Assembly: GCA_037039685.1 (NCBI GenBank)
Contig: JAWNGF010000004.1
Coordinates: forward strand, 1,922,001 to 1,986,000
Reading direction: 5' to 3'
Origin: Ceratobasidium sp. AG-K
Lineage: Eukaryota > Basidiomycota > Agaricomycetes > Cantharellales > Ceratobasidiaceae
Length of the DNA: 64,000 nt
Shown: piece by piece, positions 2,611 to 52,196 of the stretch
Layout: every line of letters starts with the position of its first letter
How positions within the stretch are numbered: the first letter of the stretch is position 1
Notes under the pieces: generated by a model
The model's input: the letters and a program-made list of their open reading frames with translations, nothing else
Database searches by the model: none
What the model was told of the DNA's origin: nothing
Made by a program: the position numbers and the translations under genes

Positions 2611-2643
2611 GCAATTTTATCGCAATTTTATCGCAATTTTATC
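2611..2643. repeat. 11-bp tandem repeat, three copies
   Basis: Three perfect head-to-tail copies of GCAATTTTATC at 2611, 2622 and 2633. This is a minisatellite-like run with no gene around it. Confidence 0.9.
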
Positions 2644-8499: not shown

Positions 8500-8513
8500 G
8501 GTTATGAGCCCTG
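8500..8513 (+). other. Primer binding site, initiator-tRNA anticodon type
   Basis: GGTTATGAGCCCTG starts right after the LTR. It is the reverse complement of the anticodon stem-loop of fungal initiator tRNA-Met (CAGGGCUCAUAACC in yeast), not of the tRNA 3' end. This is the half-tRNA priming mode known from Drosophila copia. The first ATG of the polyprotein (8504) lies inside it. Confidence 0.75.
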
Positions 8514-29383: not shown

Positions 29384-32015
29384 ATGCAAGCATCTACGCG
29401 ACGCGGAAGACAGGGAATAGAAGCTGGTCGATTTCCCACCATTAGTCCGCGTACGATAGGGCCCGATATTAGCGATCATTCAGTCGCGTGCCGTGTCGTA
29501 GAACTCTCCCTAACCATTGCGGAATTGACCCCCCAGGTCGAAACGGATATCAGGGAGCTGCTCGAGATTATTCTAACCCAAGGCCGATTTGAATACGCAT
29601 TCCAAGTGGTTGCTTATGCTTGTGCGCTGGAAAAAGAAAGTGACGCTCGACTGCTGGCTCTAGTCTTGGACTTAATACTACAACGAATCAGGGATGATCC
29701 TCGCGCCGAAGTCCATGACTGCGTTAGGCTTTGCCGCGTCATTGGGACAGAAGTTCTGCCCACTTTGCAGGATGGAAAAACCCTCGATTTAGACGGAAAA
29801 CCAGTCGTCGGGACAAGCCTTTTTCGTCTCTACTTACTTGACCGCTGTAAACTCTTCATGCAGTCAATTTGGCAGGCTAAAGAATACGCCGTTTCCCTAT
29901 TGAGCGAGTCATCGGAAAGTTCAGAAGCAGCTCAAATTGCCGCAGCCAAGTGGATAAATTTTATGGAGTTCATTGACGGGCTGTTCGGGCAGTATGTACT
30001 TGGGGAAGATATCGTCCACGCTGTAATCGATCAGCAAATGTCTTCCGTAAAATGGACAAATCGGGAGCTTAACAAAATCCTCGACATTCTGAGTCCGAGC
30101 CGGCGATTTGCACAGCTCTGCAAGACCAGCGGTTGCATGGATAGCTACTGTTCTCGTGTACAAGGGTTGGAAAAAACTGGTGCACTCGACCCTGAGATGT
30201 ATACTCGGCTAATGGTTAGTCGTCACAATTTTACAATACCGCCACTAACGGTAACGCACCATAGTCCTGCTTCGCTCGCTTCAACAGTCCCACAGTAGCA
30301 ACGGATTTCGAAACCCAGTCCAAACTAGAGCCCGACAAGGTGAGCCAATCGAGAAGTTGCATATTTCGAAAGCTTAATATCCATCAGAATGAGATACACA
30401 CTCATCCTCTTGTACATAATACTGCTAACATAAGCGTACCATTAGAAAACACCACTGGTTCCCCAGTAAGCTTTCCTCTTAGTTGGTTAAGTATACGTTT
30501 CATTAAGTAATACAGGCACCAAACACTACTCCTATTCCCCAGTTTGATCCGGTTACGCTCCAAGATAACAAGCTTCATGTCGATGCTACAACGGTGAGTC
30601 TGGTTTAAAAAACGGGGTTCTCTTTCCATACTCATATAGATACCAGCCTCTCACTGCTGTAATTGCTTTCTTTACCCAAGTCGCCCAGCCGCTCATTGCA
30701 AACTTTACGTCTGAACTGGAATCTGCAACGTTTTCGGAAAATCCAATTTCGGATACGGCTATCTCCGAGGTCTGGCGAGCGACATTGCGTAGAGGCGCGC
30801 ATGTAGCTGTCAAGTGTATCAAGTCCACAGTGTCTGGGAATGACAAGGCGGTCAAGGTATGATATATTTGCCTAAGCCGATAAGCGGACTGGTTAGTTCA
30901 AGGCCTTATTGACGTCGCAACAGCACACAGCGAGAGAACTCGCCGCCTGGTCGCAACAGCAGCATGTGAACGTACTTCAGTTGCTTGGGGTCGCGCTATA
31001 CCGAGGCAAATTGGCGATGGTGTCCGAATGGATGGAGCAAGGAAGCGTTACAAATGTGGTGAACCAAAGTCCGGAAGTAAACAGGCACAGCATCGTATAT
31101 ATTCTCGTCTCCACCATGATGCAATGCTGACATTCATTTACGGGTAGTGCGTGCAGGTAGCTAGAGTAGTCGCCTGGCTACACAGAAAAAGACTGGTAAG
31201 TAGCGAAAACTCCATTCAATGACATGAGAGTGATTCGTTGCTCATCACCCATGGAATGTCATAGATACATGGAGACCTCAAGGGGGTAAGCTCATCATGC
31301 ACGTCGTGCCCATGGTGGTACTGAACTTATTAATGTTGGAATATTCGGTAGGCAAACATTCTAATGTCCAATGATGGAATCCCGAAGGTGACAGACTTTG
31401 GGCTAACGGTGATGAGCGAGGGTGAAATGCAATTTTCAGAAACCTTTGCCGGTGGAGGAACAATGAGATGGATGGTACTTCGATTCCTGTGAACCGATTG
31501 TTATGAAACTAAGTAGACCACAGGCTCCGGAACTCTTCCAGGACAACGCTAGAAAGTCGTTCAAGACCGATGTGTATGCATTAGGAATGGTGAGTGCACA
31601 TCCCGGATTAGTAGATTAGGGTACTAAGCTGCGGTTTATGGGGCTGCTAGACACTTCTTGTGCGTGAGGCCTTTTTGTCATCGACCCAAAGAAGTTGACT
31701 GACCTTATGTGCGTGCAGGAGATATTGACCGGCCAACATCCGTTCCCAGAAATCACGAGTCCACAACGAATCATTAAAGCAGTCTCATTGGATAAACAGA
31801 TACCAAAGCGCCCAGGATATTTGGCTGAAAAGACCGCGAAGAACAACGTGTTTTGGGATGCGATGGTCAGATGCTGGGTATACGATCCGGACCAAAGAGC
31901 CACGGCTGAGGAGGTGGAAATGTTAATAAGTTCCGCTGAGGATACAGCTCAAGGATTAATGAAATCAGTAGCTGCCAAACGTGATAGTATGTGTTCGAGC
32001 TGTACATTGGCTTAG
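29384..32015 (+). CDS. MIF4G domain-protein kinase fusion A
   Basis: Ten exons join in frame to 636 residues: 29384-30214, 30265-30339, 30516-30593, 30647-30856, 30924-31094, 31157-31195, 31265-31285, 31352-31474, 31524-31589, 31719-32015. The start is set by match to paralogue B (RRGRQG follows within 12 residues). Residues about 55-270 match the eIF4G middle domain (TDIRELLEIILTQGRFEYAF; DGKPVVGTSLFRLYLLDRC; INFMEFIDGLFGQYVLGEDI). A kinase follows: K384 (HVAVK), IHGDLKGAN with D472, DFG with D490, APE with E519. The Gly loop is absent (ISDTAISEVWRATL). It ends C-S-S-C-T-L-A, a CaaX-like Cys cluster. HGDLKG is common in fungal TKL-like kinases. It lies tail to tail with TRK, 106 bp apart. 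The fusion suggests a link to translation control or membrane signalling (inference). Confidence 0.85.
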
Positions 32016-32121
32016 CCGTATTTATCACCATAAGTTGTTCGAGCGCACTAAAGACAGATTACAGCAATAAAAACCGAAAGGCAATAAAAATAATACACAA
32101 GATCAATAAGGAATCGCACAT

Positions 32122-35100
32122 CTAGTTTCCAGTCCCAAGGGCAGCAAAAGTAGGTCGAGGCGAGGCAGTGACACTAGTGACCGGGGTCAACACCTCGTGA
32201 ACGGGGGACAGCAATGTATTCGTTCGGTGCTTTAAATCCACGCCGTGTGCGGGAGCGCGGCTGGTGGAGTGTGCGTCGTGTGATGGGCCCGTCTCGCCGC
32301 TTGGACGTGTACCGGCAAAGTCGAACCCGAGGGGGCCGTGACCTTGTGCGTGTGACTGGCCAATATATTCACGCGGCAATACGACTATCACAGGCGTCAG
32401 ATCTTGCACCTAGCGGAGATTTATCACGTGTACTGACCTGCACGATCAATGGCATGGGGCAGCCCTCTGTGACGCCCTCTGAGCATGACAATGCATATAA
32501 CCAGTTTAGATAATGGCTTGAGAGCACCGGAGAAAGAATAATTGGCCTGTATCATCATGAGCATAATGACGTGGGCAATTTGGATTCGGCACTTACATCC
32601 GGCAACCCCAAAGAGAGACCAACCGTCCCGTAGGCTGAGACTAGCTCAAAGATGATCGTGAAAACGTCGAACCAGCCGTTTGATTCCGGATTCATGAGTT
32701 CTCCTCGCTAAGTTCCGAGGGATTAACATTGGTGATACACCCGGAAGAACCTACTTACCTCAATAATGCACAGAAGCCATAGTGCAAAAGCAAGCCACCA
32801 CATGTCTGCCCGTCATGTCAATCATTGGCAGGGTGATGAGCACCAAAGCGGACGTACCGAACGACAGCTGTCTTCTAGCGTGCCAGGCGAGATAACTACC
32901 CCATGCGTGCATAGGTCCGCCAGACGGATTTGGTTCTTCCTCCTCCTTTTGATTGTCATCGAGGTAAAGACCAAGTGATTGCTCTTCGTACACGTTTGTG
33001 GAACGGACAGATATCGCGACTAGGAGCAATGTGTAAGGGACGGGGTTGACAAAACGAGGAAACCGTCTGCTTACTCGGGTACACTGCAACATACCTGGAG
33101 GCAATGCGTCAATCAGTATGCGAACGTAAATCCCTCAAATAGGCATAACACATACATCATTGTTACATACAAAACTCTGTTCGCGAAGCCCGTCAGTATT
33201 AGTCAAGGTTGTAGCTGAGAAGCTTACTTTACTGCGGGCGCAAGGGCAGAGAGGGAGACAGTTGCGAATCCAGCAGCTCGGACCGCGGCGGCTTGGAGAA
33301 ACCCAATAGCAAAGCGAGTCCCAATAGGAACTGCTTCGATGACTTCGTTTCCGATATCGAGCACCATGAAAGAAACCCAATCCGTGATAACCATGCTAAG
33401 AAGCACGATCAGGAGGAACCATGTTTGATGACTGGGGAAAAGGTAGATAAAGCACCGGCGCGGGTGGTCTAGAAGGAAGGATAAAGTTTCATGCATCCGC
33501 TGGCCCACAATCTTGCTTAAAAGCCATCTAAGGTACGATCAGTCGGGGAGTATATGCGCGTAAGTTCAACAAACTCACATGAAAAACCTCAGGCTGTTTC
33601 AAAAGGATCGATATGGTCAAACTCAATTCGGATGTCTATCAAGTCACCGAGATACTTACAAGATAGGCTAGACAAGACAGTATCTTATCAGTATCTGTAT
33701 AAGATAACTCGGTCGAGTACTCACAAAAGCGGTGTTCCCAGCTAAGATTAAAAAGAACATGATCACTATCATAGGATAAGCCGTTTGAAAGGGAATCATT
33801 GACTGGTCGATGAGCGACATTCCGGTATTCGTGTAAGAAGAAACGCATTGAAACGCCGCAAACCTTGAAAGACAAGGAGCTTCAGCTTTGCGAATTGCAT
33901 AGCGCTGCGAACAACACGTACCATGTCGGCGGAACAAACCGATGTTGCTGGGGTTCACTGAAAACTGGGGCCCATTTTCCCATGCTCGAATAGGGTGCAA
34001 TGACCACGAAGGCGAGTAACTGCGTGAGAAGGTGGTACTGTGGAGTCATCAGTCAGACGTATATCACGCCATTCAAAAAGTGCATTACCCCTCCAACTAT
34101 CCAAAGCAAAGCACCGAGCGCCCGATATTCCACACCACCAAGTTCATCTTGCTCTTCCTGTGACAAATCGTGGAATTGCGAGTTGCGCCCAACAATCGCG
34201 TCAAAGGAGATGTACGGAACCTGGCGAGGCTCTGCATGTACACTCCCTACAGTTAATGTGCGCGTTAAAGTCAAGGTGTTTGGGAAGAAGCGCCGGATAG
34301 CTCTGCCTGCAAGCTCATGCGGCATAGGGAATCCCCCATAACCCGATTGGTTGGTGGGTACCTGGGTGTTGGGGGTGACTCTGGCTGTTCCATAAGACCG
34401 ACCAGTTGCTGTTCTTGGGAAATAAGCAGTGGAGACTGAGCCCATTCGAGGTCCTACAGGGAATGAAGTGGTTAGCGCCAACCCGAAACGGGGAAACGAG
34501 TAAGGATCATCGTCGCATCGGCCTCGTGGTTTGTCGGACAATAACCTCCCGAAGATTGACCAGCAATCAAACGAGGTCAACCTCCATTATGCAGGATAGG
34601 CAAAGCCCACGACCGCCAATCTCACACCCAGAGCAATCGAAAACACTCACTCCCAGTACTCCCAGCCCTCGCCCGTCCATACGTCGGCCCGTGCCCCGAA
34701 CTGCTCGCCCCACCTACATTCGCACTACCAGTGTCCCCCGCATCCGACCCTGCACCCCCACCCATCGAGAAATTCCGGAACCGGGTCCGCTCCCGTTCGC
34801 GTTCGGAATTGACGCCCGCAGACTGACGTCTGGTCCCTGCTCGTCCACGCACCCGAGGACTTTCAACAAACTCGATCGTCTGAGTTCGAGGGAAGTCGCC
34901 CGTGCCGGATGCGGTGGTGGGTTCTCGGAGTGTTACGGCTTCGCTTATTGAGCGCTCATGACCAAATGAGACCGAGGCGTGGTCCATGTCTCGCGGGCGG
35001 TTGGGGGAGAGGCGATCGTCTCCGAGGGTACCTGGGTTGACTCGGATTGGCGGAGGTTTGAACCGGACGGGACTTGACGAAATCCTTGTGCCTATGATCG

Positions 35101-36515
35101 GAAACGCAGTCGAAGTGAGGAAGATAAATTATGACGGGTGGGTCGTAGGGTGAATTTAGGGCATCGGAAAGGATACGTCAGCGACAATGAGGGTGTCAAA
35201 CAAAATATATACTTACGAGGAGAATTTTGATCGTCCGTATCGATTGGAGACAGACCTCCCGACCTCGAAAGTATAGGGGATCCATTCACACCAAAACTAG
35301 ACAAATTGAATCATGTCAGCATAACACCCAGGGCAGGTCAGAGGTGGACTTACCTCGCTGAGTGAGCCTCGGTTCCTTCATCGGTTCCCACATCGCCATC
35401 AATACGTCGCAGAATCCCACTTCCATCATCGCTGATTTCTCCTGGACTTTCCATAAATGGTGCGAGATGTAATGCAGTCGGGGTGGGAGCGAGGTTCGCA
35501 GATGGGGTCGCGTCATGGTCCAACTGTTTGGGAGTTGACGTGGAATCGTGGTGAATGGCATTGAGAGAGTCGTCGAACTCCATATGCGACAGCGTCCGAT
35601 CGGGTGAATCGCCGCCGTCGTATCGAGTTCGAGAGTCCGATGAACTAGTAGCAGCATGCTGAACCTCTTCTCCGTGCCCGTACTCTGCTTCCTTTTCGGC
35701 AGAGTGATGTCCATTCTCGACTTCCCGGTCCTTGCCCTTGCCCCCCTCCTCATCCACGACCATTCCTCCGAACCTGCCCATCGGATCCACACGCTGCGGG
35801 GCGGTCTCGACGCGCCGGATCATATCGGTTCTTAGGCGCTGGGCCAATCCTTTGCGCTTTGCACCGTCCGTGGATGATGGAGTTGCAACGCCAGACACCG
35901 TGCTCGTTGGGGACTTGCCGGGTGGGGCAGTGGGGTACACCCGGTTAGCGAGACGTCTCAAGAAGCCGGGCCGAGTGGATATTTTCTCGGGAATGTCGGG
36001 GAGATTTGCACCGGATGCAGGGGGGTTGGCATTGTTGTCTCGTGAAAGCGAGCGTGAAATGGAAACGGTCCGGGCTCGCATTGCTGCGATTATACCGCCT
36101 TGTCGTTCTCGTTTACGTTCCTCGGCAATGATGTGGGATAGTCTGTTTTGGAAGAATCGTCGGCGGGTAAAGACAATGACCCAGGAAACAATGACGGGGT
36201 TGCCGATGCACATGAGGAAGAAAAGTATGCCCTGTTGGAAGCCAGTGAGCTGGGAGAGGTCGATTGTTGCCAGGCCGGTGACTGTCATCGCACTGATGCA
36301 GTTGAAGAGGGCATCGATAAAGGGTACGTGATATCGGCCATTGGCGGCATAAAATATAGTTGCGGATATAAGAGGTGTGAATGTAAAGAAGAGAACATGG
36401 ACTCTGTTCGACGATTAGCCTTCACATCAGGAACCGGGAAATGAACTCGAACATACCTAAAAAAGTTGAGAGATTCGTAGAAACGCAACCAGGCCGCGGT
36501 GAGAGCGTTGGCCAT
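32122..36515 (-). CDS. TRK1: TRK-type potassium transporter
   Basis: Multi-exon minus gene with first exon 36457-36515 (MANALTAAWLRFYESLNFF), then 35354-36403, 35217-35296 and further exons to the stop at 32122. The four TrkH pore signatures are visible: SAMTVTGLATIDLS, SSYTNTGMSLIDQ, VRAAGFATVSLSAL and SAYGTVGLSLGLPD. Typical membrane segments surround them (GILFFLMCIGNPVIVSWVIV; ALGALLWIVGGVMHFLNG), and the late block VMLRGRHRGLPHAIDRA is a hallmark of fungal TRK. The long charged loop between the first two pore units is usual for fungi. It should import K+ at the plasma membrane. A piece of the loop exon is duplicated at 3097-3546. Not every intron was phased by hand. Confidence 0.9.
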
Positions 36516-38798
36516 GCCCTGGGGCAGAGTATCGATGGGTGGCAGATGCGGGGAACGCGAACCAGTGAATGTGTGACAATAAATAGTCCACGTGTGAATA
36601 CAGATACAAGTAAGGCAAGCTGTCGAATATGCCGGGGTCTAGATCAGGAAGGGCGAGCTCGAGGTCCAAATGAGTCTCGATCGGCACAAATTTTCGCAAG
36701 TAGTAGTGTAGTGTATTATAAGGGGTCCGTATGTTGGTTGGGTGCACACGATAGGGCAACTATCATGGGCTCTAAGAAAATGGGCTGGGCAATGGGTGGT
36801 GGTTTGAACGAAGCCAAGCAAAGAGAAACGTGCATGGATGCCCCACAGCACCCCTGTCTATCCTGTCGTCACAAGGCCCGCCCTATCTTCCCCGCAGTGA
36901 AAAACGCGATTGGTTCAGCCACACAACCCGAAAGACGGCGATCGTCCTCCCGACTGGATAAATAAAAATACAAGATGATTTACACCGGCGACAACTCAGG
37001 ATGTCGTCATTAGACAAAAATATGTGGCGGGCCATTACGTCCGGGATATCGCGGCAAGGTCTAATTTTGGTTTCAAACAAATTGGAAAATCAGGGCTTGT
37101 CATCAAACGCGATTTCCCCAACTGAGCCCGATGACAAACAACTCTTGACGACGCGGCGGCGCAACAACGGACTCGAGCTCAAACTTGCCATGGCTCGTAT
37201 GGGCTGAGTTGTCTGACTTGAACATCGCTGCGGCGAGGTGACGGAGCGGTGGCGAGCGCGTGTGGGGCAAGTTGATGATGGCTGAAACACCTCACGGGGT
37301 GTGCGACGTTTTCGCTGTTCGAGATGTAAGCATTTCAGCAGCGACAGACGTTACACATATCCGCTGTCAATGTGTAATCTCCATGCACTTGTCTCCACTC
37401 GACTCCACATCTTGCAATCAAACTGATTATTCGCTGGCAGGTCGGGCGCCGGCGACGGGATCGTACCCACTAAGACCCGATGTATACGACGGCGATGATC
37501 GCCCTGCACCCTCGTTCCTTGTTCTGGGCATTCATGGGACCTTCTCACCGTGTGGCGAATACGGTGTAGAGCGCCTAGCAGAATTCGCGCATTCACCGAG
37601 GCCTGCTATCGCCTCGCCAAGTATACCCTTGCCTAGTCAAGCCAGCCAAGACGTGCCAATGTCTTCGAAGATCATCCAGGAGTCAGGGGCGCCTAATATT
37701 ATCCTTCACCGGGCTGCAAGTTGGGCTCATCATTGGGACGCGGCCAGCACGTCCCGGAGCATGATTGGGAGTTATGCGCTCATGTTTTACAGGTGCTCCA
37801 TCTTCTCACGTTCCCCTGAGGTCGAAAGAATACATTATCTTGGCTTCTTTTCCTCCTCGCCTCCCCACGATTCCAACTTCGCAGGCCGATGTACGGATTG
37901 AGCAGAGCTCGCAACACGACTCTACCACGCCTCCTTCTCGGTATGGACATAGTCCGAGCCTGAATGGAGAGGCGGAATGTTGACATCTTTCACGTAGATT
38001 TGGAGGCTATTCATGGATTGAGCTGCTGTAGCAGGGTTGGGAATGACTGAAATCATGATCACAGAGTGGCATTCCCCGCACTGCCGCATGTATAAATACC
38101 GTGATTACTATTTAATTTAGGATCATGTGTATCCCTTGCACTTATGTCTAAAAGAGATCCTACACGAGGCCCGAGGATAAGAGAGGAGAGCAGTGTGATA
38201 TATAAATGAGATGGTGGCTCATGGTGGCAAGATTCGGTTGTCTAATGGGCCAAACGTAGGTCATTTTAGCATGAGCGATTATTTAGGAGTCAGGTTAAAT
38301 TATCTAAGCGATAACATATCAAAAGACGATGGATTATATATGGGATGCAGTGGTTTAACCACTGGGAGCACGGGCCGTATCGGAGGCCAAGAGCTAGAAG
38401 AGATGACCGATACCAAGAATTTAGTGTTCTACTGTAATTCAATGTGAGTCAAGTAATCGTAATATTTACTCACAGTGCTGGCAGAGCATAAATTTAGCTT
38501 CTTTGCTTACCTTTCGCCGTAACTTGTTATTCAGCACGTTGTTCCGTAAGTAGAATTTTACCTTACGTCTGTAGAACTCTCGGCGTTACACCTGGGACCC
38601 TATTCACGTTGCACTTCAACGATCATACCACGTCCACTGACTCCGGAATTACTCAAGTTCCAATGTGATTGAGCGACTCTTACCGATGTCGTCTAGTCAT
38701 CCCCCACAACTCGAAGCCATATCGGACGCGAGCGTCATAACAAATGGTGTAGTTGGGCAAAAAATGGCAGACGACGCGTCTGGCCTACTCGTCCAATA
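36516..38798. other. Intergenic between TRK and kinase fusion B
   Basis: Presumed promoters of both genes. A 213-codon plus frame at 37260-37901 has no recognised motif and was not accepted. Confidence 0.45.
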
Positions 38799-41486
38799 AT
38801 GCACGCGCCAGCCCGACGCGGAAGACAAGGCCTCGCCACGAACCCCCCTCCCACCAATCGCACACGCACGACAGTCGGGCCCGATATTAGCGACTATTCA
38901 GTAGCCGATCGTGTCGCGGACCTCTCCCTTACGGTCGCGACTTTGACCCCTCAGGTTGAGGAGAATATAAAACGCCTCCTCGATGAGGTTTTGGTTCGTG
39001 GACAATTTGGCGACAACGCAATTCAAATCGTAGCCTATGCTTGCGCCCTGGAAAAGGAGAAGGACGCTCGTTTGCTCGCATTGATCCTGGATCTGATGAT
39101 GCAGTGGCTCAAGGACGATCCGGAAGCCGACGTTTACCACTGCGCTCGACTGTGCCAGACTATTAGGTCCCAAATTCTTCCAACAATGCAGGACGGAAAG
39201 ACGGTCGGGTCGGATGGGCAGCTAGTTGTTGGTGTTCGGCTCTTTCGCACGTACCTACTTGGCCGTTGTCAAAGTGCGACGGAGCACATATGGAAGGCGA
39301 AGGAGATGGCAACCTCCTTAGTGGATAGGACTCCAGAACACGCCGAAGCGAGTCGCTTAGAGGTGACCAAGTGGATCAACTTTGTTGAGTTCGTCTACAC
39401 ACTTTGGGGAAGCTTCGTTCTTGGGGAGTCTGTCGTCCATGACATCATTGAGAGGCAGTTCACCTCTATGAGACCAACGGACCGGGAAATCTACAAGGTT
39501 CTCGCACGCATCGGGCTTGGAACAAGATTCTCACGCGAACACAAAATGGAGGGTCGGATGAATGCGCATTATGTTCGATTACAAGAGCTAGCGCAGAATA
39601 AGACGACTGCGCCGGAGGTGCGGGAATCCATACTGGTATGTACAAACCGTCATTGAGGCTTGGATAGTAACCGAAGCCCGCATACAGTCTTCTATTCCCA
39701 AAGTTGAGGCTGCCTTAAAGGGCGAAGGAATCGTGAGTCAGCCTCCGGTAGGATTAACTAAGGTTAGTTTGTTCGGAAATCGAACGTTGTTGCCTGCTGA
39801 CATTTGGGGGATTGGCAGGTTTCGGATGCTTCTCACCCTCTGGTTCCAACAAAGAGCAATCCGCTGCAAGTTGGCAAGGATCCGGCAAATATTGTAGGTC
39901 CTCAACGCATTGTCCAAGTTCTTGTCTGAGCTTCCTCGTAGATTGCGCAAGCACCCAAAACTGGAGTTGTTCAGGTCAGGTGAAGGACTCGCCTTAATAC
40001 CGTTCACCATAGTTGATACCTATCTCATTAGGCCGCCGGGGAACCGAACGTACCTTCTTTCGATCCCAGCTCTCTCCACAACGGAAGGTTCCAAGTCACG
40101 GCTTCCACAGTGAGTAGTCTTTTCTTTACCGCACAAGTTATTGAGCCCCCACTCCCATAGCCCTTGACCTGGGTGGTAGCCTTTTTTACCCAGTTTACTG
40201 ATGCACCAGTGCACGACTTTACTGCTGAGCTCAAGTCTACATCTTTCTCTCTAGACGAATCCGTGCCCGTACAAAGTAGCCAGCTTTCAGATATTTACCG
40301 CGCCACACTGAGCACGGGCATGAAGATCGCGATCAAATGCGTGCGGACGGCAATATCTGGAAACTCAAATGTAGTGAAGGTAATACTGAAAAAGAATTTG
40401 GAATTAGTTAGGCGGCTCACTGCTTTATCAAGCATACCGTCGCGGAACTCGACGCCTGGTCAAAGCTGCGCCATAAGAACATACTCGAGCTATTGGGAAT
40501 TGCTTTATTTAATGGACGCCTGGCGATGGTTTCCCAATGGATGGAGAAAGGAAGCATCATCCCAGTCGTGAACAGTAGACCCGAGTTGGACAGATATGCA
40601 TTGGTGGGTTGTCACTGGTATAGGGCTCGGGGACATTAGTATTCTCATATTTGGAGCAGTGCCTACAGGTAGCTGAAGTTGTTGCGTGGCTACACGAGCA
40701 AAAATTGGTGCGATATCATGGCATGCATGCTGGACTGGTATTGACTGCATTAATTTACGTTAGATACACGGGGACCTGAAAGGCGTAAGTAATGGGATGC
40801 TCTGCGTTTCATTGGATGTTGAAACAGGCGTATTTTCAGGCAAACATACTCATGTCAGACAACGACACTCCAAAGCTAACCGATTTTGGGCTATCCATTA
40901 CTCAACAAGGCGTGTTCAATTATTCGACCACATTTCAGGGCGGGGGAACAGCGAAATGGATGGTATGCCCATGTTGTGGTATTAGGGATTAAACATACTG
41001 ACATTTGCCTAGGCCCCCGAACTAATGGGGGAATATCCCGCCAGAAGTTACCAGACGGACGTGTACGCGTTAGGGATGGTACGTTTGCTAACTAAATATG
41101 CGGTTTGGTTTCTGACCAAGCCGACCTTGTGGCAATTTCAGACAATACTTGTAAGAGAGTCGTGGGTTTTTTTGTAGGCGCTAATGCTCGTGGGATAGGA
41201 AATCCTAACAGGGAGGGAGCCATTCGAGGAAATCACAAACACTCTTGAAGTGGTCCACGCAGTTCGGAGCGAGAAAAGACTCCCCAGGCGTCCCCAGTGC
41301 CTGTCCGAGAACACGAATCGCAACAAGTTATTCTGGACAGCGATGCGCCAGTGCTGGGCATATGATTCCGGGAAGCGACCGCCAGCGGTGGATATCCTGG
41401 AGATATTGCGCGATGCAATCGGGAGTCCGGATAGCGATTTGAAGAGCGACGGGAAGCGCAGTAGCTATTGCTGTACTTTTGCATAG
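38799..41486 (+). CDS. MIF4G domain-protein kinase fusion B
   Basis: Eleven exons join in frame to 653 residues: 38799-39635, 39688-39732, 39819-39893, 40032-40109, 40161-40379, 40433-40603, 40669-40707, 40764-40784, 40840-40962, 41013-41078, 41199-41486. Six of the last seven exons have the same lengths as in paralogue A (78, 171, 39, 21, 123 and 66), so the models support each other; B has one extra linker exon. The MIF4G part shows DGQLVVGVRLFRTYLLGRC and INFVEFVYTLWGSFVLGESV. Kinase residues: K404 (KIAIK), IHGDLKGAN with D492, DFG with D510, APE with E539. The Gly loop is again missing. It ends S-S-Y-C-C-T-F-A, so the C-terminal Cys motif is conserved. Confidence 0.85.
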
Positions 41487-41718
41487 TCCAAAGGTTTGCA
41501 CCCATGCTTTCCCAGAAGATTGGATTCTCTTGCATGCCGAGGTATCATGTTCATTGATGAATGCGCTACAGTAATTATATATCTAGGATACATTAACTGT
41601 GGGTATCGACTATCATATAAATAAGCTAAGCAATATAAATAAGCTACGCCACTCATATCCTCCCCTAGTAGTCACAGTTAGAATGGATTAATGATGAAAG
41701 ATGAGATTTGTGAGGAAG

Positions 41719-43973
41719 CTAGAGACTTACTCCGTTGCCAGTTCGTGAACCCCCATATCGGTAGCCGGAATCATTCGTTTCTCCATAAGCGTCGATTATG
41801 GAATCTACACTCATACGTAGCATACCCAAGCCGATAGCCATTCGAGGCGTAGAAGCCGGAGCGATGTCGTCGGCCATAGGCGCTAGCATCGTTGAGGCCG
41901 GAGGTTGATTCCGAGACGTAGCTCCAGGAGTCATGTCGATCGACGCTGCCTGGTCGGAGACCTGTGGATTGTTTCGGCTCGGAAGGTTTGGCCCCGTGTC
42001 AACCTTTGGGATCCCCCGATGTCGCATGTCAATCGTACTCGACGAACCAAAACCACCTGGAGCACGAGGAGAACGTAACACGGCAGACACTATCCCCTGC
42101 ATTGGGATATTTCGAACGGTGCTAGGATTGAACCCGCGGTCCCGAACGGTGGTCTGACTGGTGTTTGCGGCAGGTCGACCTCTATACTCTCGCAAACCAA
42201 CGCCAGCAAACTGATTGGGTTGCTCCCGTACCACAGACACTGGTGGACGCCGAAGATTGAGCTGGGGTGTATATGTCTTCTGTCGGGTAGGCGGTGGTGG
42301 TTTCCGAGCTTCGGATTGTTGACGCAGGAGCTCCGAGGGTAGCGCATACACGCCCTTTCCGTAATTGTAGGCTGAGCTTCCTCGACGCTCGTTTGCTATC
42401 TTGGTTGAAAGTATGTTTGCCCCGCGTGAATCGAGGGAAGCCGAACTGGAGCCAGTTTTAGAGAATCTTCCGGGAACTCGGAACAGGGAAAGCACAGAGT
42501 TACGCCAGGTCGGACCGGGGGCCGGTCTAGGCGGAATAAGAATCGAGTTGGGTTTTGATAGCGATGCATCTTTGGCACAAAGTCAAGGGTCGATTAGAGT
42601 AGGTCATCATCCGAGAATTGAACGTCCAAGGGTAATACGGGTTGGCGAGTCAGTGGCTACGCAGTCTCAAGGGTAGTATGCTCACCGGTGGAAGCCCGGG
42701 TGCGATCGCGGGGTCGGGGCGGTTGGAAGGACCCGGGGAACGCAAAGTGTTGAAACAAGGAGAGTATTGGCCTAAATCCAGTATATTAAAACTATCGTGC
42801 AAGCGACATCGGAATGAATGTACGTACACTAATCCTATCGAGCTGGCCACAATGATCTGTGACGAAAGTGGAGGGTTGTAACCACCACCAACCAGATCCT
42901 GAATTACCATAAAGTGGACGTTGGCGTAGAGTAGGGGGCAATTCGCATTCGGTTCGAGCCAGCCAAGGTTTCACGGATTTGTATATAAAGGTATTGAGAC
43001 GATATTGAGCACTTGTGCGACGCAGTATATGGTAAATTGAGATGGAATTACTTACAGCCAAGTGGTTATCGTTCATGTCCAATAAGAACCTTAATCCCCT
43101 GCTCATGCCGTCCTGGCCGTTGAGAAGTAGGTCAACGGTGAGTGCGACAAGGAACGAACCAATCGAGGCCGTAGAGAAAATCTAAAATACTTCTCAGTAG
43201 GGTCTCCATATAGCTTCCGTGCCACTTACCATACCCTCGCGTCGCTTGAATATAACGCTAAGGCTGCCCAATAATGCGCCCGCCGCAATGATGACAATAT
43301 TCACGAATGCCAGCTGCTGATTCAATCCAGGCGGAACGAGCAGTCCAGGGCGTAATATAATGCCCCTGGTGGCAACTGATGCACCGCCTAGGGCGCAAAT
43401 AGCTGCCATCGCTGGGAGGACGAGGAGGCGAAACGCGCCACTAATTACGCCAACAAGAAACGCTGCTCCGGTGATGAGGATGAGCACCATATCGGACATG
43501 GACTGCGACGAGGCAAAGCCAGCCTCAGATATTGTATTTATCAAGGCGACCCACACTGTGAAAATGTCAGTTGACGTCGAATCGGTGGATCGTATAAGAC
43601 ACTTACTGGCAAAAGCCAATACAAGCCCCCCTCCCAATGCGGTTGTGACTCTCCAAAGCCTCACTCCAGCTATGCCAAGAGGTAACCCAATTGTAAGTGC
43701 CGCGATAGCCCATATCATATTAGGAGCCGAGAATATTTGGCCATTGATTAATCCACCACCATCCGAAGCTAGTACTTGCGGGACGGGCGCTCCAGTGATG
43801 TCGTCGAAAACCGAGACCTTGAATCCGGGCATGGGGATGGGGCGAACAATCGCCCGTGGGATCAGAATCGGACTGGCCCCGGTACATGTGGATATGATAA
43901 GGGTAACGAAAGCGAGCTGTAAGACCCGTTGGCTTTGGTGGCGGGGAATGGTAGAAGGAGTGACGTCCTGCAT
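41719..43973 (-). CDS. TMEM198/DUF4203-like multispan membrane protein
   Basis: Exons 43607-43973, 43230-43555 and 43056-43181 join in frame, followed by one ending at 42828, then 42686-42771 and 41719-42569. A signal-peptide-like start (LQLAFVTLIISTCTGASP) is followed by about seven hydrophobic segments (MIWAIAALTIGLPLGIAGVR, DMVLILITGAAFLVGVISGA, LLVLPAMAAICALGGA, NIVIIAAGALLGSLSVIF, STASIGSFLVALTVDLLL). Then come FKRREGM, NGQDGMSRGLRFLLD, YNPPLSSQIIVASSIGLV and a long Ser/Pro/Arg-rich cytosolic tail. The layout matches fungal TMEM198/TM7SF3-type DUF4203 proteins, whose role is poorly known. One exon near 42900-43000 is not fixed. It is tail to tail with kinase fusion B. Confidence 0.75.
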
Positions 43974-45132
43974 AAGGCCGTATCTTTAAAGGAAGGTGGG
44001 TAGAAATAAAGCAACAGCGTAAATAAGCAAAGAATGGCGGGTACAGTCAAGTAGCCCAACCGACCCAACTAGGACAGCACAGTGAGGAAATGTGGTTTGA
44101 GCCTCGTCGAAGCCGACAGATAGCTCAAGCGGCGAATGAGTGTGTTTGCTGGGTGATCCGGAAAGGATGTGATGTTCAAATATACTCTCTCGAGGCCAGC
44201 ACGAGGAGGTGAGCGTCCGGGTCCGATCCCAACAGGCAGCCAGACTGAAAGCGAGTCTGGTGGCGACCTGCAAGTGAGTGGCAGTCACGTTGAGAGCGGG
44301 CGTCGACGCCGTATTTCCCGGTGGTCGAAAGAAACAAAGCACCCAAGGATACTAATTTACCGTCACTAAGAAACATTTCGAAAGTCAGCTAAATTGCTTC
44401 GACGGCACTCTTGTTGTGGTTGGCAACCCAACTGCTTCCTGTCACGTGCCCCTTCGCATCATGTTACCCACAGTCCACAGGAGGGCAACAAAGTGTTCAA
44501 GCTCTGAAGCTTATTGTACTACGTAGCAAACCGATGATAAAACATTACACCAGCAAGACGATGGTATCGACAGGCAACACCGGATGTGTAATTTGGGATG
44601 TAGGACGAACTAGCGAGCTATCTCCCTAACAACCGTGGCACTACCTCTAACGATGGTACTGTACAGCATACGGATAGTTAGTCAATTCCATTAATAGTCG
44701 GGGTAGGGCTCCCTGCCAGAGGATCGAATCCGAGAAATGAACGAATAAAAATTCCCGTTATTACAAGCGGGAAGTGGCTATGTTATTTGGACGCGATAAA
44801 TCATACATGACATCAATTTACACGAGCGGTCAATCTAAAAATGCAGTAAGCTTCTGGTGTATGTCGGACAGATACAAATCTAATTCGAATTATATACCCA
44901 TGGTATGGTATTCAAGATTCAGTTCGAGTTATGGGGTGGTGTGCTGTTTTGTGACGAGGGCGGGGATGGGGTAGTTCTACCTGTGTGGACGCTATTGTGT
45001 GGCGAGGGATCCGGGGTACCCTGGTGATCTCGAATAACTCGGTGATCTTGAATAATCTGGGCCGTGGTCCGACTGGTATTCCCGTGAGCACGGTTCAGGT
45101 TATGGGTAAATCTAGGCATTCCCTGGTTTATA
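43974..45132. other. Intergenic
   Basis: No supported gene. It includes the upstream region of the TMEM198-like gene. Confidence 0.5.
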
Positions 45133-46199
45133 TTAGGTCGGGATATATGCGTTTGAATTAGAGCGTTGACTGGACTTACTACACCGGCGAGCGATTTCAT
45201 GATCTTGCACTTGAGAGATAAGTCGGGTTTATAAAATTGGGGTAACGAGTATTTTAGTAGATCGCTATATGTTCCAGCTGGTAACTCTCATGTTTACTGC
45301 GGGATTAAGCGTTCTGGTTCTAGAACATACCGATCACTACTGTTTGTTGCTCCTGCAGAACCGGAGCAGACTTGACGCCATCTAATTTGCTTCTATAATT
45401 GAATATATCTGTCTGCGACCAATTTATATCGTCTTTGAAGTGGTTAGCTAATAAATTTCATTGGCTCTTAGGATGAAAGGGCCTACATTGACCCCCTGGC
45501 GCAGACATCCGATCCAGGAGATCACTTGTCTCGCGATAATCATTTTGGGAACAATGAAGATGAGCGGGAAATCGGCTACGGTGGTACCAATACTCGGCAG
45601 CATCTCTCATCTGTGCTAATAGGGCAGACATGAAGTCAACACATCAACAACGACAAGAAATAGTGGCTCACGGTCATTGACATCTGAGTATTGTGGAGCA
45701 GTTCCATCGAACCATTTGACTGTCTGCGTAGAATGGTCGGCGACATAGTATGCCCATTTTGGGTTGGCGGTCGATAGACATCGAATGACGATCACAATAT
45801 CCATGGGGTTCTTTCGGAATGAACAATCACTCGAGCTCAAGCTCCGAGATATCGAGAGAGTTGCTTGAAGAAACGTCTCGAGGACCGAGTTGTCATATAA
45901 GTTGTTAATAGTGAGGAAGTTGAGGTATTTGTGGTATCGGTAAGAAGAACCGTGGTATAATTGATGATGTTGAAGCTCCAACCCCTGAGAAGAACTAGGC
46001 GTACTGTTAGGCCTTACATTAGGTCATCACCGGAAACCACAAAACACATACTTGGGCATGCGTCGACTCTTATCTAAGCATCTGAGTATGATACAGGTTA
46101 GTATGCGTGTATAGGAAGACATTATAATCACCTTTTCCCTTGGTCTCCCAGTGAAAAACTGGGAAAAACTGGACGGGCGCCTCGCAATTGGTTGGACAT
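45133..46199 (-). CDS. WW-like family protein, short form (member 2)
   Basis: Proposed exons 46132-46199, 46052-46081, 45672-45984, 45493-45615, 45331-45432 and 45133-45209. It starts MSNQLRGARPVFPSF. The third exon holds a WW-like module without the first Trp (LELQHHQLYHGSSYRYHKYL) and WAYYVADHSTQTVKWF, equivalent to YYLVDHANRTICWL in member 1. Next come AAEYWYHRSRFPAH and a short hydrophilic end, so it lacks the C-terminal membrane region of member 1. The junction between the second and third exons gives PKGW in one frame and the conserved module in another, so a one-base shift or an unrecognised splice site is possible. Function is unknown. Confidence 0.5.
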
Positions 46200-47674
46200 G
46201 ATTGAAGAGAAATGAGAAGCAGGTGAGAGAAATATAACTAAGAATATATCTATAGAATGTCGTAGAGTGAAGGAATCGTTTCAGCGAAGTCGTTGCAGCA
46301 AGGAGGTCTGTGGCGGGGGCACTCATATATACGAGACCATATTATAGAAGTGGCGACCGCCCAGTGTCGAAGAATCAAAGCGATCAAATGCCTATATTAA
46401 GTTCATTGAGAGGCATGCGGGAACGTACTAGCACCAGTCGCGGAAATCGAAGAGCAGTGGGTTTGAAATGGCTGGAGGCGCAATCATCACGATCACCGGG
46501 TTACCCTGCACCTGGAGTCCCCTTCCGAGTACTCTGGTCCGTGTCGACGGGATTGTGAAGACGAAGAAAGTACCCGTATATCCACGCCGGCACGGCGGTG
46601 TACGTGCCCCAGGGGGCGCAAATATAAGTCAGTGGGCTCAGGGGGCTGCTTGTCTCCAACAACCACTAGGTGTAACGGCTTATGTGAGGGCCAACTTGAA
46701 GCTCAAGGCTGTTGAAGTATGTAACATAGATGGTCCTCAAGTCCCAGCCGAAATTCGCAGTCGCCAAATTGCAAGTCAAAACAAACCTGTCCTTGATGCG
46801 ATCAGGGATGGGATCGCAACCCCTCGAAGGCGAAGCGAAGGAAAATACTCTAGAGGATGTCAGTGGTTTGCCGCCAGTGATACGGGTGCAATTTTAACTT
46901 TATATGTTAAGGTTGCACGCTTAGTCGGGCCGCCAGTCGTCGTTAAGTTCGAGCCGACACAAGGGCGCCAACGCTTGCTACGGCCGACCGTGATAGGGCA
47001 GTTCTCAATTCCATATTCATTGAACCAGAAAGCGAGCGCCTCTTGTTGTCAATTTTTAAATTTTGCTAATAATTGCGATTATGTACTCCTGATTAGTTAT
47101 ATGGCAGAACTACAACACCTGAGGAGACCAACCAATTCTGCATAATCCAAGTCTCATAACCTTTATTCGCTACCCGCATTCCAGCCAACTCGGCACCTTA
47201 CACCCGACATAACTAAGTCTGGGTTGGGCTCTGCGGAAGCATGCCGCACGGAGGCATCCTCATGATCATCTTCATGCTCCGTAGCTCCAAAAACGCCGGT
47301 AAACTGCGATCTCATCGTCAGTTAAAATCAAGAGAGGCACAACGTCTACACCCACAACGCCTATGAAGCTTTGCAGAAGGGTTGACCGAGGTGGAGTCTC
47401 GACAGGAAGGCATTCTTTCGAGGAAACATCGAAAACGCTCAGCATTATCCTGGCTGCTAACCATGAGGTTAAATTAGGGTAGCGGTTCAACAATTAACTT
47501 GCCGACTGAGAAAGTCGCATACATGTCGATGTTGTTTCGGTCGAAACGACTTAGGAGGTAATGAAGGGATATTTCACGCTCCGGATGGGGTATGTCTGAA
47601 AATTCAACTGGCGCTCCTTGTCAGAGAGGTTCCGAATAAATGTGAACTAGCTGTGGCTCACGGCGTTCCCTTAC
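46200..47674. other. Intergenic; possible decayed 3' end of WW member 3
   Basis: A plus frame at 46468-47145 (225 codons) shows no domain. On minus, near 47530-47610, SLHYLLSRFDRNNIDMYATF may be the downstream part of the WW-like gene at 47675 but could not be joined with confidence. Confidence 0.4.
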
Positions 47675-48307
47675 GAGCTTGCGAGCAAGACTGCAAGCGT
47701 CATCATAGGCTCTGGATGTGCACGGTCGGTGAGTGGGGAACACAGAAACATGGTACCAGTATTCGGCTTCACTCTGCGTGGGCCCATTGTAAATGCCAAC
47801 TTCGGCAGGTAATTTAGCACAAAGACTCGTGCCCCAAAGAAAAAATCAATATACCATTCTCTATCCCCGGAACGCCCTGTAAATGTGCAAAAGTATCGAT
47901 GATTCGTCCATGTTCATGATCAACCACATAATAGTAAAATCCTAACTCGGTAGGTGGCAGGTCATGAAGAACCACAACTACCTCATGCGAGCCAAGGCTA
48001 ACATTGTGAGCCTCTAAACAACGGTTGATCTGACTCTTGGCGTGTTGGAATGATATATCTACAGCGCGGTGCTTAACATTGCAGGGCGTCAAAAAATATT
48101 CGTGCTTAAAGTAAACCCGACCATCATGAGAGACATGCTCCTGATACCCATTCGTCAACCGATCAAGGGTGGCGGCCACAACGGGATGGTCAGCGCTATA
48201 CGCGAGTTCACGTACGTGAAATTTAGAAACGCATGCCTCTCTGGAAAAGTATAGCACACCTTTCAAGAGAACTTCCTTGTGCCAGACTGCAGTCGGTGGC
48301 TCAAAAC
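47675..48307 (-). CDS. WW-like family protein, partial (member 3)
   Basis: Two exons join in frame: 47855-48307 and 47675-47799 (intron 47800-47854, GTATAT..CCGAAG). It carries the family pattern: NGYQEHVSHDGRVYF (WW-like, first Trp replaced by Tyr), FYYYVVDHEHGRIIDTF, then SEAEYWYHVSVFPTH. The 5' exons (upstream of 48307) and the 3' end are not resolved. It is most similar in layout to member 2, 1.5 kb downstream, so the pair probably arose by local duplication. It could be a pseudogene. Confidence 0.5.
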
Positions 48308-49163
48308 CTAGTCCAGTGGTAACGTGCTATTGTGCTCACCAACATCCCAGTACCCCAAGCGCCTCGCGTGGCAGGGAGTACCTCCCGCAACTATGGTGCG
48401 AAATAGGACAGCAGATCTCCATTGATATCGAATGAGTTGAAGGGAAACAGATGAGAAAGGGCCAACTGGTTACAGGCGTCACTAGAGGGCAGAAGTACTC
48501 TAGTAGGCCTGTGAGAAGTTGAGGAAATAACCACGCATACCGCCCGTGAATATATATGAGCAATCGATCATACTTTCACGGAAGTACGATGGGCAGGTTT
48601 TGCACTTTTTTAAGGGCCTTCAATTTGGGGGAGTTGCAGGAAATTGCCTGTTCGCCTTTTTGTATGATTCCGGATGAGTACAAGCTGCGCACGAGGGGTA
48701 GATGAGGTCCAGGTGGTAATCAGAGCTGCCCAATCTGCCTAATATGTTCCATTGAGGAGCAGATGTTACGGGAAAGGCTCTCGGCTAGGACTTTGAGTTC
48801 AGGGGACAGGAAAGGGGCTTGGGCGACGATTCTAGTGCTGCTTTTTGCGCCACCGTTTTCGGTCGTTCCCGCCGCGACGAGATCTTACAGGGAAGCAGTC
48901 CTTTCCTTCGTCTTTGCATCGTTCTCCCAGATGGGTTGTAGTAGGGATTTGCAGGACATGTGGATACGTCGCTCGCCGAAAGGCAGGGGGTTTGGAGAGT
49001 AAATTTATCTTGTCTGGGTTATACTGCACGTGACACTCATAACGTCATATTTCTCACTGTCTAAATTAAACTTATAATTCCGTTTCTACACGTGACGTCA
49101 ACGGCGTAGTTTCAAACGACCATTGTAGTTCGCCTCACTACATAGCGATACTGGGCCGGCCTA
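48308..49163. other. Intergenic
   Basis: No gene identified. A short plus frame at 48763-49002 has a hydrophobic run but no support. Confidence 0.45.
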
Positions 49164-51166
49164 ATGCTCGGGCTACCTAACCTACGAAGAAGAGGGAAAC
49201 CCTCCACTCCTCCAACTCCAGAAGCCGATGCGGTTCCCGAGGTACCAACCCCGACCGCTGGTGAGGAGAGCGTAGTTGTTTCACTCGACACCATTACAAA
49301 ATTGCAGAAACATAAATTTCAGAATGCTAGAGGAAGGCTCGATGTAAGCTTTTTGGTCATGGTACACAGTTCACCTTCACGTTGTGTGACAGGAGTGGTT
49401 TATCGGCAAACGACGTGTATTATTTCCACTTGGCTTGGCGCGTGAGTTTCAATCACGGCGCACAACATTTCGTTGCTGAGATTGTTGAGAACTTTAGTCG
49501 GTATACTAGCATCATTCTTTATCCTTTCTCCTCTACCTCCGAACATTGCACTCCTCCTCGAAGAGTATGACCTGTCCAGTCTTACCCTCCCTGGTCTCGA
49601 ATTCGAATGGGGCCAGATAACCGAATCGATATCCAAGTCAACTCCCCGGAAGCTTTGGGCGGAAAGTAACGACTTCGAGTTGGCACGGCTTTGAAAGAGC
49701 AAGGCCTGGAGGCGGAAACACCCAGTTATCCTTATACCTGGCATCGTCTCGACAGTAAGTATCTCACACTATCTCTCAAGTAAGTCTAAATTCATTCTCC
49801 GTCAAATTTAGGACTTGAATCCTGGACCACGTCGCCCGATTATCGACCGTACTTTCGCAAGCGCCTTTGGGGCACCACTACTATGGTCCGGGCAGTAATA
49901 ACGGACCGAGAGCGCTGGATCGCGGCACTCATGCTCGACCCCGATACAGGCTTGGATCCCCCCGGTATCAAGGTCCGCGCTGCGCAAGGACTAGATGCCG
50001 CGAGCACTTTTATGCCAGGTAGGCATATATTTGACCGTGGTCACACGATAGGTGTTACTCACCTCGTGGCCTGCAGGATATTGGATTTGGTAAAACCAGG
50101 CAGCTGGCGACATATCACGCACGTACTAACCTTATCGACTAGGTCTAAAATTATTGAAAATCTGGCTGTAATAAACTATGATACGAACAACTTAAACATG
50201 GCCGCATATGATTGGAAGATTATCATAATATAATTTAGAGGTTAGAGATGGTTACTTTTCGAGGTACGCATTCACATTTAGCACCATGCTACCTTAGCTC
50301 CGCTGAGTCCTCGTAAAGACTCAAAGCACAGGTTGAGACATTCAAGTATGTACATCACGGATGAAACGAGCATTAGGGGTTAATCAGGATGTAGGAAACG
50401 ACAAGGGAAGAAAGTTGTATTAGTTAGTGCGTAGCTTTCTTGATTGGAGATTAAGGAAGCTAGCTCGATTGACCCTTCCTTGTTTGTATCAGGTCATAGC
50501 ATTGGATGGAACTGTGGTCATGGTAAGCTGAGTTTCAACTACGCCTCATTGTGCTATTCTGACTTGATTTAGTATTTGTATTTCTCGAGTTCAAGATTCT
50601 ATGCACGAAGGCTGACTTAACAACTCCGTAGCTTGAAAAGTGGTCGAAGCGCCAAGCTACGGGAACGGCGACCAAACTGGGTGGAGGTAAGTACAGCGCT
50701 CGACCGAGCATATGTCAATTCATCTTCGTTACAGGACCAATATTGAAGCGTTCGTTAATGTCGCTGGGACCTTGCTGGTGCGTCATCTTTCCGTGCCTAT
50801 TGTCGATGCAAGATCAAGAACTCCCATATTGAATACAGGGTGTTGTAAGCGCTAGATAACCACGTCGAGATATGATCGTCTGATCTCTGATCCAAATACA
50901 TAGCCCAAGGCAATGGCCGCATTTGTATCTGGCGAGATGAGAGATACAGTGGAGATCAACCCTGCAGGAAGCATATGGTAAAGCATTCCCATTTTGTTGC
51001 CACAATGACTGATTAGTCCTATTTTATCAGTACTTGAAAAAGGGTTCGCTCAATCAAGGATGAGGTATTTCGTTATCGCTAAACGCAAACTCGTGCATTT
51101 TACTCTCGCAAAGAGCGTGCCAGGTTATTCCGTAGCTGGGCAGGAAGCGCGAGTATGTGGATCAAG
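49164..51166 (+). pseudogene. Phospholipid:diacylglycerol acyltransferase (LRO1-like), decayed
   Basis: It starts MLGLPNLRRRGKPSTPP, with a single membrane span (GILASFFILSPL) and then clear PDAT blocks: LEFEWGQITESI, KHPVILIPGIVST, ESWTTSPDYRPYF, LWGTTTMVRAVITDRERW, LDPDTGLDPPGIKVRAAQGL, WIWSKIIENLAVINYD, NIEAFVNVAGTLLG, AFVSGEMRDTVEINPAG, LFRSWAGSASMWIK. These are hallmarks of the ER enzyme making triacylglycerol from phospholipid and diacylglycerol. Damage: an in-frame TGA at 49692, a one-base loss at the next exon junction (before GLESW), a one-base gain plus TAA after AAYDW near 50217-50230, and two single-base losses near 50645-50690. The lipase serine sits in S-H-S-I-G followed by a shifted frame. 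The C-terminal third is not recognisable. Introns remain, so it is not a retrocopy. Confidence 0.75.
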
Positions 51167-52196
51167 GTAAGGTCTTTTTGCCGACCTTCTCCCGAACCCG
51201 TTATGCTTGGGAGCGACAAACGGACTGGCTCAGACTTCGGCCTCCCTCATGCGCGCGGTTCGTACTGTTTCATTCGAACCCGAATCAACTTGCCATACTC
51301 ATATCCATGGCGTGGGAATTTACAGATTGGACCCGCGATCACCACCGCGTTATTCGCCTTGTCCGCAAAGCACGGCTCGTTCTTGGTTTATCTCACTCTT
51401 ACGGGGGCCACTGGGCTTTGTATCAGTGCTAGCATGCTTATGCGCGCCGAGTGGACCAGCGCCACGAGCTCGGGTGTGACGAGGCAACAATCACTTCACT
51501 GAATTCAAGTGGCAGTCATTAGAAGTTGCCACTATCGTCTAAAGTATTCCTACAAATTTTGTATTATATCTGCACGCAGCTTTAGATCATCACTAGAAGC
51601 CTTGATATTGTATAATGCGGATCCTGGTCCGTCTCTCCGTTGCGGATCTCTGTCTTTAGGCCAGACCAGTTTTCGTGACTGGTGCTGAAACCGTCACCGG
51701 GCTTCATTTGCCGGCTCTCAAAAGGGAACTTCGATAATAATTTAGATAATATGCATTATGGGTGGGCTGGTTGGAGCGTCATAACAAATTGTGCATGACG
51801 AAGTTCTGTGATCTTCCCGATGATGATGCGGCAATGTTTCAGACGGAATTTGATGCGCGGAGGATACATATGGGAGGAGCGAGCTGCCGAGGGATCGACC
51901 GGTGAGGGCGCTTATACGTAGCCGCGCGTTCCGCGACCGATACCCCTATATTATTGGCGTAACTCTTCACCCCAACCAGCGTTAGCTAGCGATCGGTCTG
52001 TTCTGCTCTGACCGAGTGCTGACGTGTGATACCCGGTCACGGCCTCGGCAGCTTTTGCCCGCTCTGTATATCGATTCACGTGTTAGATAAGGATTCACGA
52101 TCTCAAACCTATTCTATAAATTCTCCTGTTCACAAACCACTCGTACTTCTTCTCAACACACTTCATCCTACTCTCGAATCACCACCAGCTTTTAGG
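51167..52196. other. Intergenic, including eroded PDAT 3' end
   Basis: Weak traces of the PDAT tail may run to about 51500. The rest is the upstream region of the glucosyltransferase gene. Confidence 0.4.

Follow-up and report, generated by a model that had tools for sequence, protein, structure and literature searches.

A 64,000-nucleotide stretch of the Ceratobasidium sp. AG-K genome (the window; contig C4, positions 1922001–1986000, from a 53.6 Mb assembly of 17 contigs) carries two related genes, A and B, each joining an eIF4G-type MIF4G domain to a protein kinase. By sequence comparison, both are members of a Ceratobasidium-lineage kinase family whose N-terminal part is an eIF4G MIF4G/HEAT-1 exon. 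The interpretation favoured here, with a probability of about 0.58, is that the products are membrane-tethered kinases using the former eIF4G domain as a docking or sensing surface, and that the family arose by duplication of eIF4G and forms an array that is still changing.

Structure of genes A and B

The features of the two genes are listed below (nt, nucleotides; aa, amino acids).

29384..32015, forward strand: gene A, MIF4G-kinase fusion, 642 aa, 11 exons; GT..AG at all introns, all phase 0
29384..30214, forward strand: gene A exon 1, eIF4G-type MIF4G domain by profile comparison, with its end at the same codon position as the eIF4G intron
30265..30593, forward strand: gene A linker exons 2 and 3 (30265–30339, 30516–30593); exon 3 equals gene B exon 5 in length (78 nt)
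30647..32015, forward strand: gene A kinase exons 4–11, with VAVK, HGDLKGAN, DFG and APE; glycine-rich loop without glycines
31651..31659, forward strand: gene A 9-nt microexon (TLL; the corresponding P0001 residues are TIL)
32001..32012, forward strand: gene A C-terminal CAAX-like box CTLA, with an upstream Cys (CSSCTLA)
38799..41486, forward strand: gene B, MIF4G-kinase fusion, 680 aa, 13 exons
38799..39635, forward strand: gene B exon 1, eIF4G-type MIF4G domain; AlphaFold2 predicted local distance difference test (pLDDT) 85.2, predicted template modelling score 0.80
39688..40109, forward strand: gene B linker exons 2–5
40161..41486, forward strand: gene B kinase exons 6–13, with IAIK, HGDLKGAN, DFG and APE
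41142..41150, forward strand: gene B 9-nt microexon (TIL)
41472..41483, forward strand: gene B C-terminal CAAX-like box CTFA, with an adjacent Cys (YCCTFA)

On re-examination the coordinates, motifs and junctions (30214/30265, 30593/30647 and 40109/40161) of the original prediction proved correct, whilst its models of ten and eleven exons were revised to 11 (A) and 13 (B). Each gene gains a 9-nt microexon, and one exon in each is 48 nt rather than 39 nt long, both corrections following the independently annotated homologue P0001. The VAxK motif assigned to both kinases is present in A (VAVK) but not in B (IAIK). Exon lengths are 831, 75, 78, 210, 171, 48, 21, 123, 66, 9 and 297 nt in gene A and 837, 75, 75, 33, 78, 219, 171, 48, 21, 123, 66, 9 and 288 nt in gene B; because all are divisible by three, every intron of both genes is in phase 0.

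Exon 1 encodes an eIF4G-type MIF4G domain

Scores against Pfam PF02854 (MIF4G) were 16.1 bits for A and 20.3 bits for B, under the gathering cut-off of 30.8. Among the relatives described below, P0008 scored 30.8 bits, level with the cut-off, and P0001, P0002, P0003 and M1909 were unlisted at E 0.1. Single-sequence searches of the PDB gave no match for A exon 1 and chance matches only (E 1.1 and 1.5) for B exon 1. A profile of the exon 1 family, however, matched the genome's own eIF4G in profile-profile comparison (probability 99.7, E 3.2e-27), and in a PDB profile search its top six matches were all eIF4G or DAP5 (best 3.5e-10); eIF4G in the PDB was reached only by this family profile and not by single exon 1 sequences. 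Fold comparison assigned the predicted model of B exon 1 to the HEAT fold of eIF4G HEAT-1. Profile and fold comparison together settle the assignment of exon 1 of A and B to an eIF4G-type MIF4G domain, bearing out what had been proposed for the N-terminal part. The all-helical HEAT fold is common to eIF4G MIF4G/HEAT-1 (yeast eIF4G1, 2vso/2vsx; human eIF4GI/II; DAP5), and yeast and human eIF4G and DAP5 are the closest proteins both by sequence profile and by fold. The MIF4G exon ends at the same place as in the genome's own eIF4G.

A family of MIF4G-kinase fusions

Searching the genome with A exon 1 gave 15 matches, all on C4, corresponding to seven family members, two eIF4G, four eIF4G-like matches and two stop-bearing remnants. 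The family members are A, B, B' (a 99% copy of B), M2972, M2979, M1913 and M1909, and each of the seven is followed by kinase exons on its own strand, although in M2979 these lie approximately 4.3 kb away. A database of 5.8 billion proteins contained two fusions from Ceratobasidium sp. AG-I (P0001 and P0008) and two from Ceratobasidium sp. 392 (P0002, marked partial, and P0003), P0008 combining a kinase domain with MIF4G at the Pfam cut-off in one annotated protein. The P0001 and P0008 genes probably lie on one AG-I scaffold, both records giving 1,416,649 bases for the longest contig. In a second search, which scored the best 7994 candidates, four of the seven proteins (P0004–P0007) covered 26–40% of the query with no MIF4G listed. 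The protein search finds only relatives with short exact words in common, and the fusion may extend beyond these Ceratobasidium genomes.

Ten fusions were compared (A, B, M2972, M2979, M1913, M1909, P0001, P0002, P0003 and P0008). Across 30 of 30 family pairs the proportion of synonymous differences (pS) was saturated at 0.74–0.86 and that of nonsynonymous differences (pN) was 0.17–0.56; saturation made the ratio of the corresponding rates (dN/dS) incomputable for 29 pairs, and only the contrast of pS and pN was used. Since synonymous sites are saturated and pN is lower, both domains have been maintained by selection. Trees of the MIF4G domain and of the kinase each set M1909 and P0008 (subfamily I) apart from the other fusions (subfamily II) with starred support. 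Both subfamilies are present here and in AG-I, and the fusion therefore probably predates their split.

The pairing of the two domains at these loci exceeds chance, and the comparisons support a genuine fusion family, as originally claimed, and no annotation artefact. A wrong merger of two adjacent genes, a MIF4G-only gene and then a kinase gene, would account for the long open frame in exon 1 by itself but is highly improbable given the constant order and strand and similar exon patterns at 7/7 loci, the phase 0 of all A and B introns, and the independent annotation of P0001, P0002, P0003 and P0008, each as a single fusion protein. A literature search covering material other than subscription papers and preprints gave, among the papers listed, no description of a MIF4G-kinase pairing and nothing on MIF4G together with kinases in Rhizoctonia, on Ceratobasidium eIF4G or on MIF4G-kinase domain architecture.

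The eIF4A face and other eIF4G features

Unlike eIF4G, the fusions are joined to a kinase and have just ~50 residues N-terminal to the MIF4G domain. To describe further differences, human numbering was anchored on the letters of 8huj, with which 12/12 residues named in papers agree, and five eIF4G-type rows were used (human, yeast and three of the genome's own loci). The eIF4A-contact signature LNKLT (769–773 of human eIF4GI, the T773 region) is present in all five of these rows and in none of the ten fusions. The eIF4E-binding motif YxxxxL-phi was absent from 10/10 fusions by a pattern match made with no positive control on a set including two incomplete sequences. At position 767 the fusions carry E, R, W, T or L, compared with S in human and yeast, A in the genome's own eIF4G, and D and G in the eIF4G-like copies. 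All eight subfamily II proteins have D or E at 779, and five of them (M2972, M2979, P0001, P0002 and P0003) are acidic at both 779 and 783, unlike A, B and M1913; in yeast eIF4G the two residues are A779 and E783. For human eIF4GI, the available portion of PMC7470955 reports that S767D and Q779D/Q783D do not bind eIF4A, and that a single Q779E or Q783E change does not abolish activity, some being kept. The pattern of residues suggests that eIF4A binding is likely lost in the fusions, less certainly in A and B than in the five double-acidic members. Of the two roles originally suggested, sensing or control of translation through eIF4A is consequently less well supported, and use of MIF4G as a docking module is still the best reading. 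The original prediction made no mention of an origin from the neighbouring eIF4G gene, the CAAX-like tail, the exchange of domains or the differences between locus copies.

On another face, His918 is kept in 10/10 fusions and Glu914 in 7/10, and both are kept in the genome's own eIF4G; yeast eIF4G has F and G at the 918 and 914 positions. Norovirus VPg binds eIF4G HEAT-1 around 914–919, away from the eIF4A face, according to the accessible part of PMC4703368. Conservation of His918 and Glu914 may be structural.

Kinase domain and C-terminal tail

The kinase domains of A and B scored 119.6 and 118.3 bits against PF07714 (cut-off 23.1), and PF00069 was also matched. Residues K425 (catalytic Lys), E444 (alpha-C), D516 (the catalytic Asp of HGD) and D534–G536 (DFG) are invariant in 7/7 aligned members. 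Kinase activity of A and B is plausible. A partial GxGxxG glycine-rich loop is found in M1913, M1909 and P0008. Among the best 60 of 2494 matches, the closest solved kinases by sequence include EGFR, TYK2, CTR1, B-Raf and RIPK1, a mixture of tyrosine kinases (TK) and tyrosine kinase-like (TKL) kinases. Agaricomycetes have expanded TKL- and TK-related kinases (PMC3937382, portion available), and these share with the A/B family the PF07714/PF00069 domain and HGD replacing HRD. The family differs from them in its MIF4G domain, a conserved FFTQ segment ahead of the kinase, the CAAX-like tail and, in 7/10 members, a degenerate glycine-rich loop.

All seven complete subfamily II tails (the partial record P0002 being left out) terminate in C-T-[LFVM]-A, immediately preceded by a further Cys and by basic residues. 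A CAAX box is recognised by Cys at -4, an aliphatic residue at -2 and an X suited to farnesyltransferase. The tails have Cys at -4, an aliphatic residue at -2 and a farnesyltransferase-accepted X, flanked by palmitoylation-type neighbours, and the subfamily II tail is hence a predicted lipid anchor to membrane. Ras/Rho and GRK1/GRK7 are prenylated signalling proteins that likewise have a Cys-aliphatic box at the C-terminus, accompanied by basic residues and additional Cys; in the A/B family lipidation is, by contrast, a prediction only.

Origin from eIF4G

Gene A is approximately 80 kb away from the genuine eIF4G gene at C4:1871556, and eIF4G-like copies occur at C4:1886972 and 1892942. In this eIF4G gene and both copies the MIF4G exon closes with a phase-0 intron, and in the six distinct fusions of this genome exon 1 ends at the aligned eIF4G position with a GT donor. 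An eIF4G gene was thus probably duplicated and then joined to a kinase via this eIF4G intron.

Two eIF4G-like genes were noted at L003 (C4:3064649–3068290) and L006 (3058681–3062319), with mirrors L004 and L005. Both keep LNKLT and the MIF4G exon boundary, and their frames stop soon after. Downstream of the L003 gene is a remnant of a kinase C-terminus, nearest to M1909 (50% identity); the exact remnant peptide was not found in the mirror L004 by the same search, despite 99.6% identity between L003 and L004.

A changing array

The kinase of gene A groups with M2972/M2979 (95/99) and a grouping of A with B is rejected (p 6e-4); its MIF4G domain groups with that of B (92/91, not starred) and a grouping of A with M2972 and M2979 is rejected (p 3e-5). 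By sequence, gene A looks like a chimera of swapped MIF4G and kinase parts. The kinase tree was poorly resolved with distant outgroups and was rebuilt without them, then with P0008 added.

Two further features of the window bear on the array and its surroundings.

32048..51193, no strand assigned: duplicated block, 98.9–99.4% identical, inverted, to C4:2950511–2969912 (two aligned pieces)
32500..36414, reverse strand: Trk-type potassium transporter-like gene lying between A and B, extent estimated from open reading frames (ORFs); weak PF02386 TrkH match below the cut-off (ORF 35350–36414)

Homology of the duplicated block ends 33 bp past the gene A stop codon, and at this place the second copy has M2972 and M2979 instead; the two locus copies in this one assembly thus differ in gene content at gene A. 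Comparison of window 1–29383 with the second copy (to C4:2992500) gave just one match of 69% and one of 79% (>150 bases, E<=1e-10). B (exon 1, 38799–39635) and B' (C4:2962329–2963165) differ at eight codons gene-wide, seven of them in exon 1, where four amino acids are changed; no differences occur in the kinase exons or in 645 nt of introns. Two further stretches of the window are doubled on C4; one pair is 99% identical about a different centre, the other 70% identical. Kinase matches on contigs C8 and C12 were seen to be paired with equal scores. Doubling on C4, C8 and C12 reflects either two haplotypes that have been folded into a single contig or recent large-scale duplications; the inverted 99% copy on C4 may represent the second haplotype, a true segmental duplication or a misjoin.

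Window 23493–24573 is 70% identical to C4:2991273–2992360, compared with 99% for the block across gene A. ORF 23535–24107 in this divergent block has no Pfam name, and a mating-type reading of the block was dropped for that reason.

Pieces of the Trk-like gene recur near MIF4G-kinase genes: L071 (at 8264–8978), which adjoins M1913, matches window 35891–36072 at 89.6% and window 2569–3099 at 94.7%, and the window ORF at 3191–3742 looks like the Trk-like ORF by eye. Transporter and kinase were perhaps duplicated together. Elsewhere in the window, a 1432-aa open frame at 8459–12757 (forward strand) was recognised by eye as gag-, integrase- and reverse-transcriptase-like sequence of a copia-type retrotransposon, and ORFs 57417–58286 and 60626–61480 (reverse strand), the first lacking a Pfam match, have RYGSGYTYG and GRGFP[FY]GYWPV in common.

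Interpretation and alternatives

Under the favoured reading, the C-T-[LFVM]-A box of subfamily II with its neighbouring Cys and basic residues would be prenylated, and perhaps palmitoylated, placing the kinase on a membrane. The MIF4G domain, with its scaffold fold kept and its eIF4A face altered, would offer another ligand a surface for docking or sensing, and occupancy of that surface would steer or activate the kinase. Duplication, loss and exchange of MIF4G and kinase parts would still be altering the array.

Several observations weigh against this reading. A and B are acidic at 779 alone of the 779/783 pair, single acidic changes at these positions are tolerated in human eIF4GI (PMC7470955, available portion), and 767 and 779 vary among eIF4G-type rows too. 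The glycine-rich loop has no glycines in A, B, M2972, M2979, P0001, P0002 or P0003. In M1913 exon 1 has a frame break, no GT follows the HGDLKG exon and the catalytic-loop Asn position is Lys, and the M2979 exons are widely separated; some family members may be dead. The whole-protein AlphaFold2 model of P0001, built on a three-row alignment and usable for MIF4G only (mean pLDDT 45.7), failed in the kinase, where pLDDT was mostly <50. Neither member of subfamily I (M1909, P0008) has a CAAX box. With regard to swapping, A and B are unresolved in a MIF4G tree that omits the eIF4G rows, the kinase tree with distant outgroups did not reject a clade comprising A, B, P0001, P0002 and P0003 (p 0.27), and the groups for the swap tests were picked after identities were known.

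The first alternative, a tentative one, is that MIF4G is an integrated decoy, mimicking eIF4G for parasites such as mycoviruses that bind HEAT-1, or for non-self variants, and that binding triggers the tethered kinase. The array near eIF4G might then comprise intracellular antiviral or allorecognition receptors of a class other than the nucleotide-binding leucine-rich repeat receptors (NLRs), diversifying by MIF4G/kinase swaps. A duplicated host factor on a signalling module, with variable gene content, is the form of plant NLR integrated decoys (PMC4759953), and the wheat tandem-kinase fusion Lr9 (PMC10260399) likewise carries an extra domain on such a module, as far as the available parts of these papers describe; the A/B family differs in being fungal and without an NLR, its immune role being proposed only. 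Fungal het genes are highly polymorphic and often linked (PMC10197012, in part). Also consistent with a decoy are the retention of the VPg-side residues His918 and Glu914 (site from the accessible part of PMC4703368) while LNKLT is lost, the different gene content of the two 99% locus copies with its break just past gene A, the apparent swapping of domain parts, and the concentration of B/B' codon differences in exon 1. Against this, His918 and Glu914 also occur in the genome's own eIF4G and are replaced in yeast, and the copy comparison comes from one assembly with just eight differences.

A translation-control kinase, in which MIF4G binds eIF4A, eIF3 or RNA and the kinase phosphorylates initiation factors, is less likely again. 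The eIF4G-type fold fits such a role, and kinases working on eIF4G complexes exist, Mnk acting on eIF4E. Interface residues vary in true eIF4G, where the single acidic changes are tolerated (human eIF4GI; PMC7470955, portion available), and subfamily I, without the CAAX box, is nearer this picture. Loss of LNKLT throughout, the acidic residues at 779 and 783 in subfamily II, the failure to find an eIF4E motif and the predicted membrane anchor all argue the other way. Direct control of translation is the less favoured role in subfamily II and a possible one in subfamily I.

It is improbable that the genes are functionless relics of unequal exchange near eIF4G: the broken frame and lost splice donor of M1913, the interruption of M2979 and the stop-bearing MIF4G remnants nearby suggest decay, but the frames of A, B, M2972 and M1909 are open, replacement changes are far below synonymous ones and relatives occur in two other genomes.

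A single contig carries the donor gene together with degenerate copies, an eIF4G-like copy flanked by a kinase remnant, and the completed fusions, so that a kinase's capture of one exon from a core translation factor can be traced. Models of basidiomycete somatic incompatibility rest on ascomycetes (PMC8229728, in its available part). If MIF4G acts as a decoy or docking module, the family would offer a directly testable candidate for basidiomycete non-self recognition, and should the decoy interpretation be true, a part of the fungus's own eIF4G, a host factor bound by some viruses, would have been turned into the sensor of a tethered kinase.

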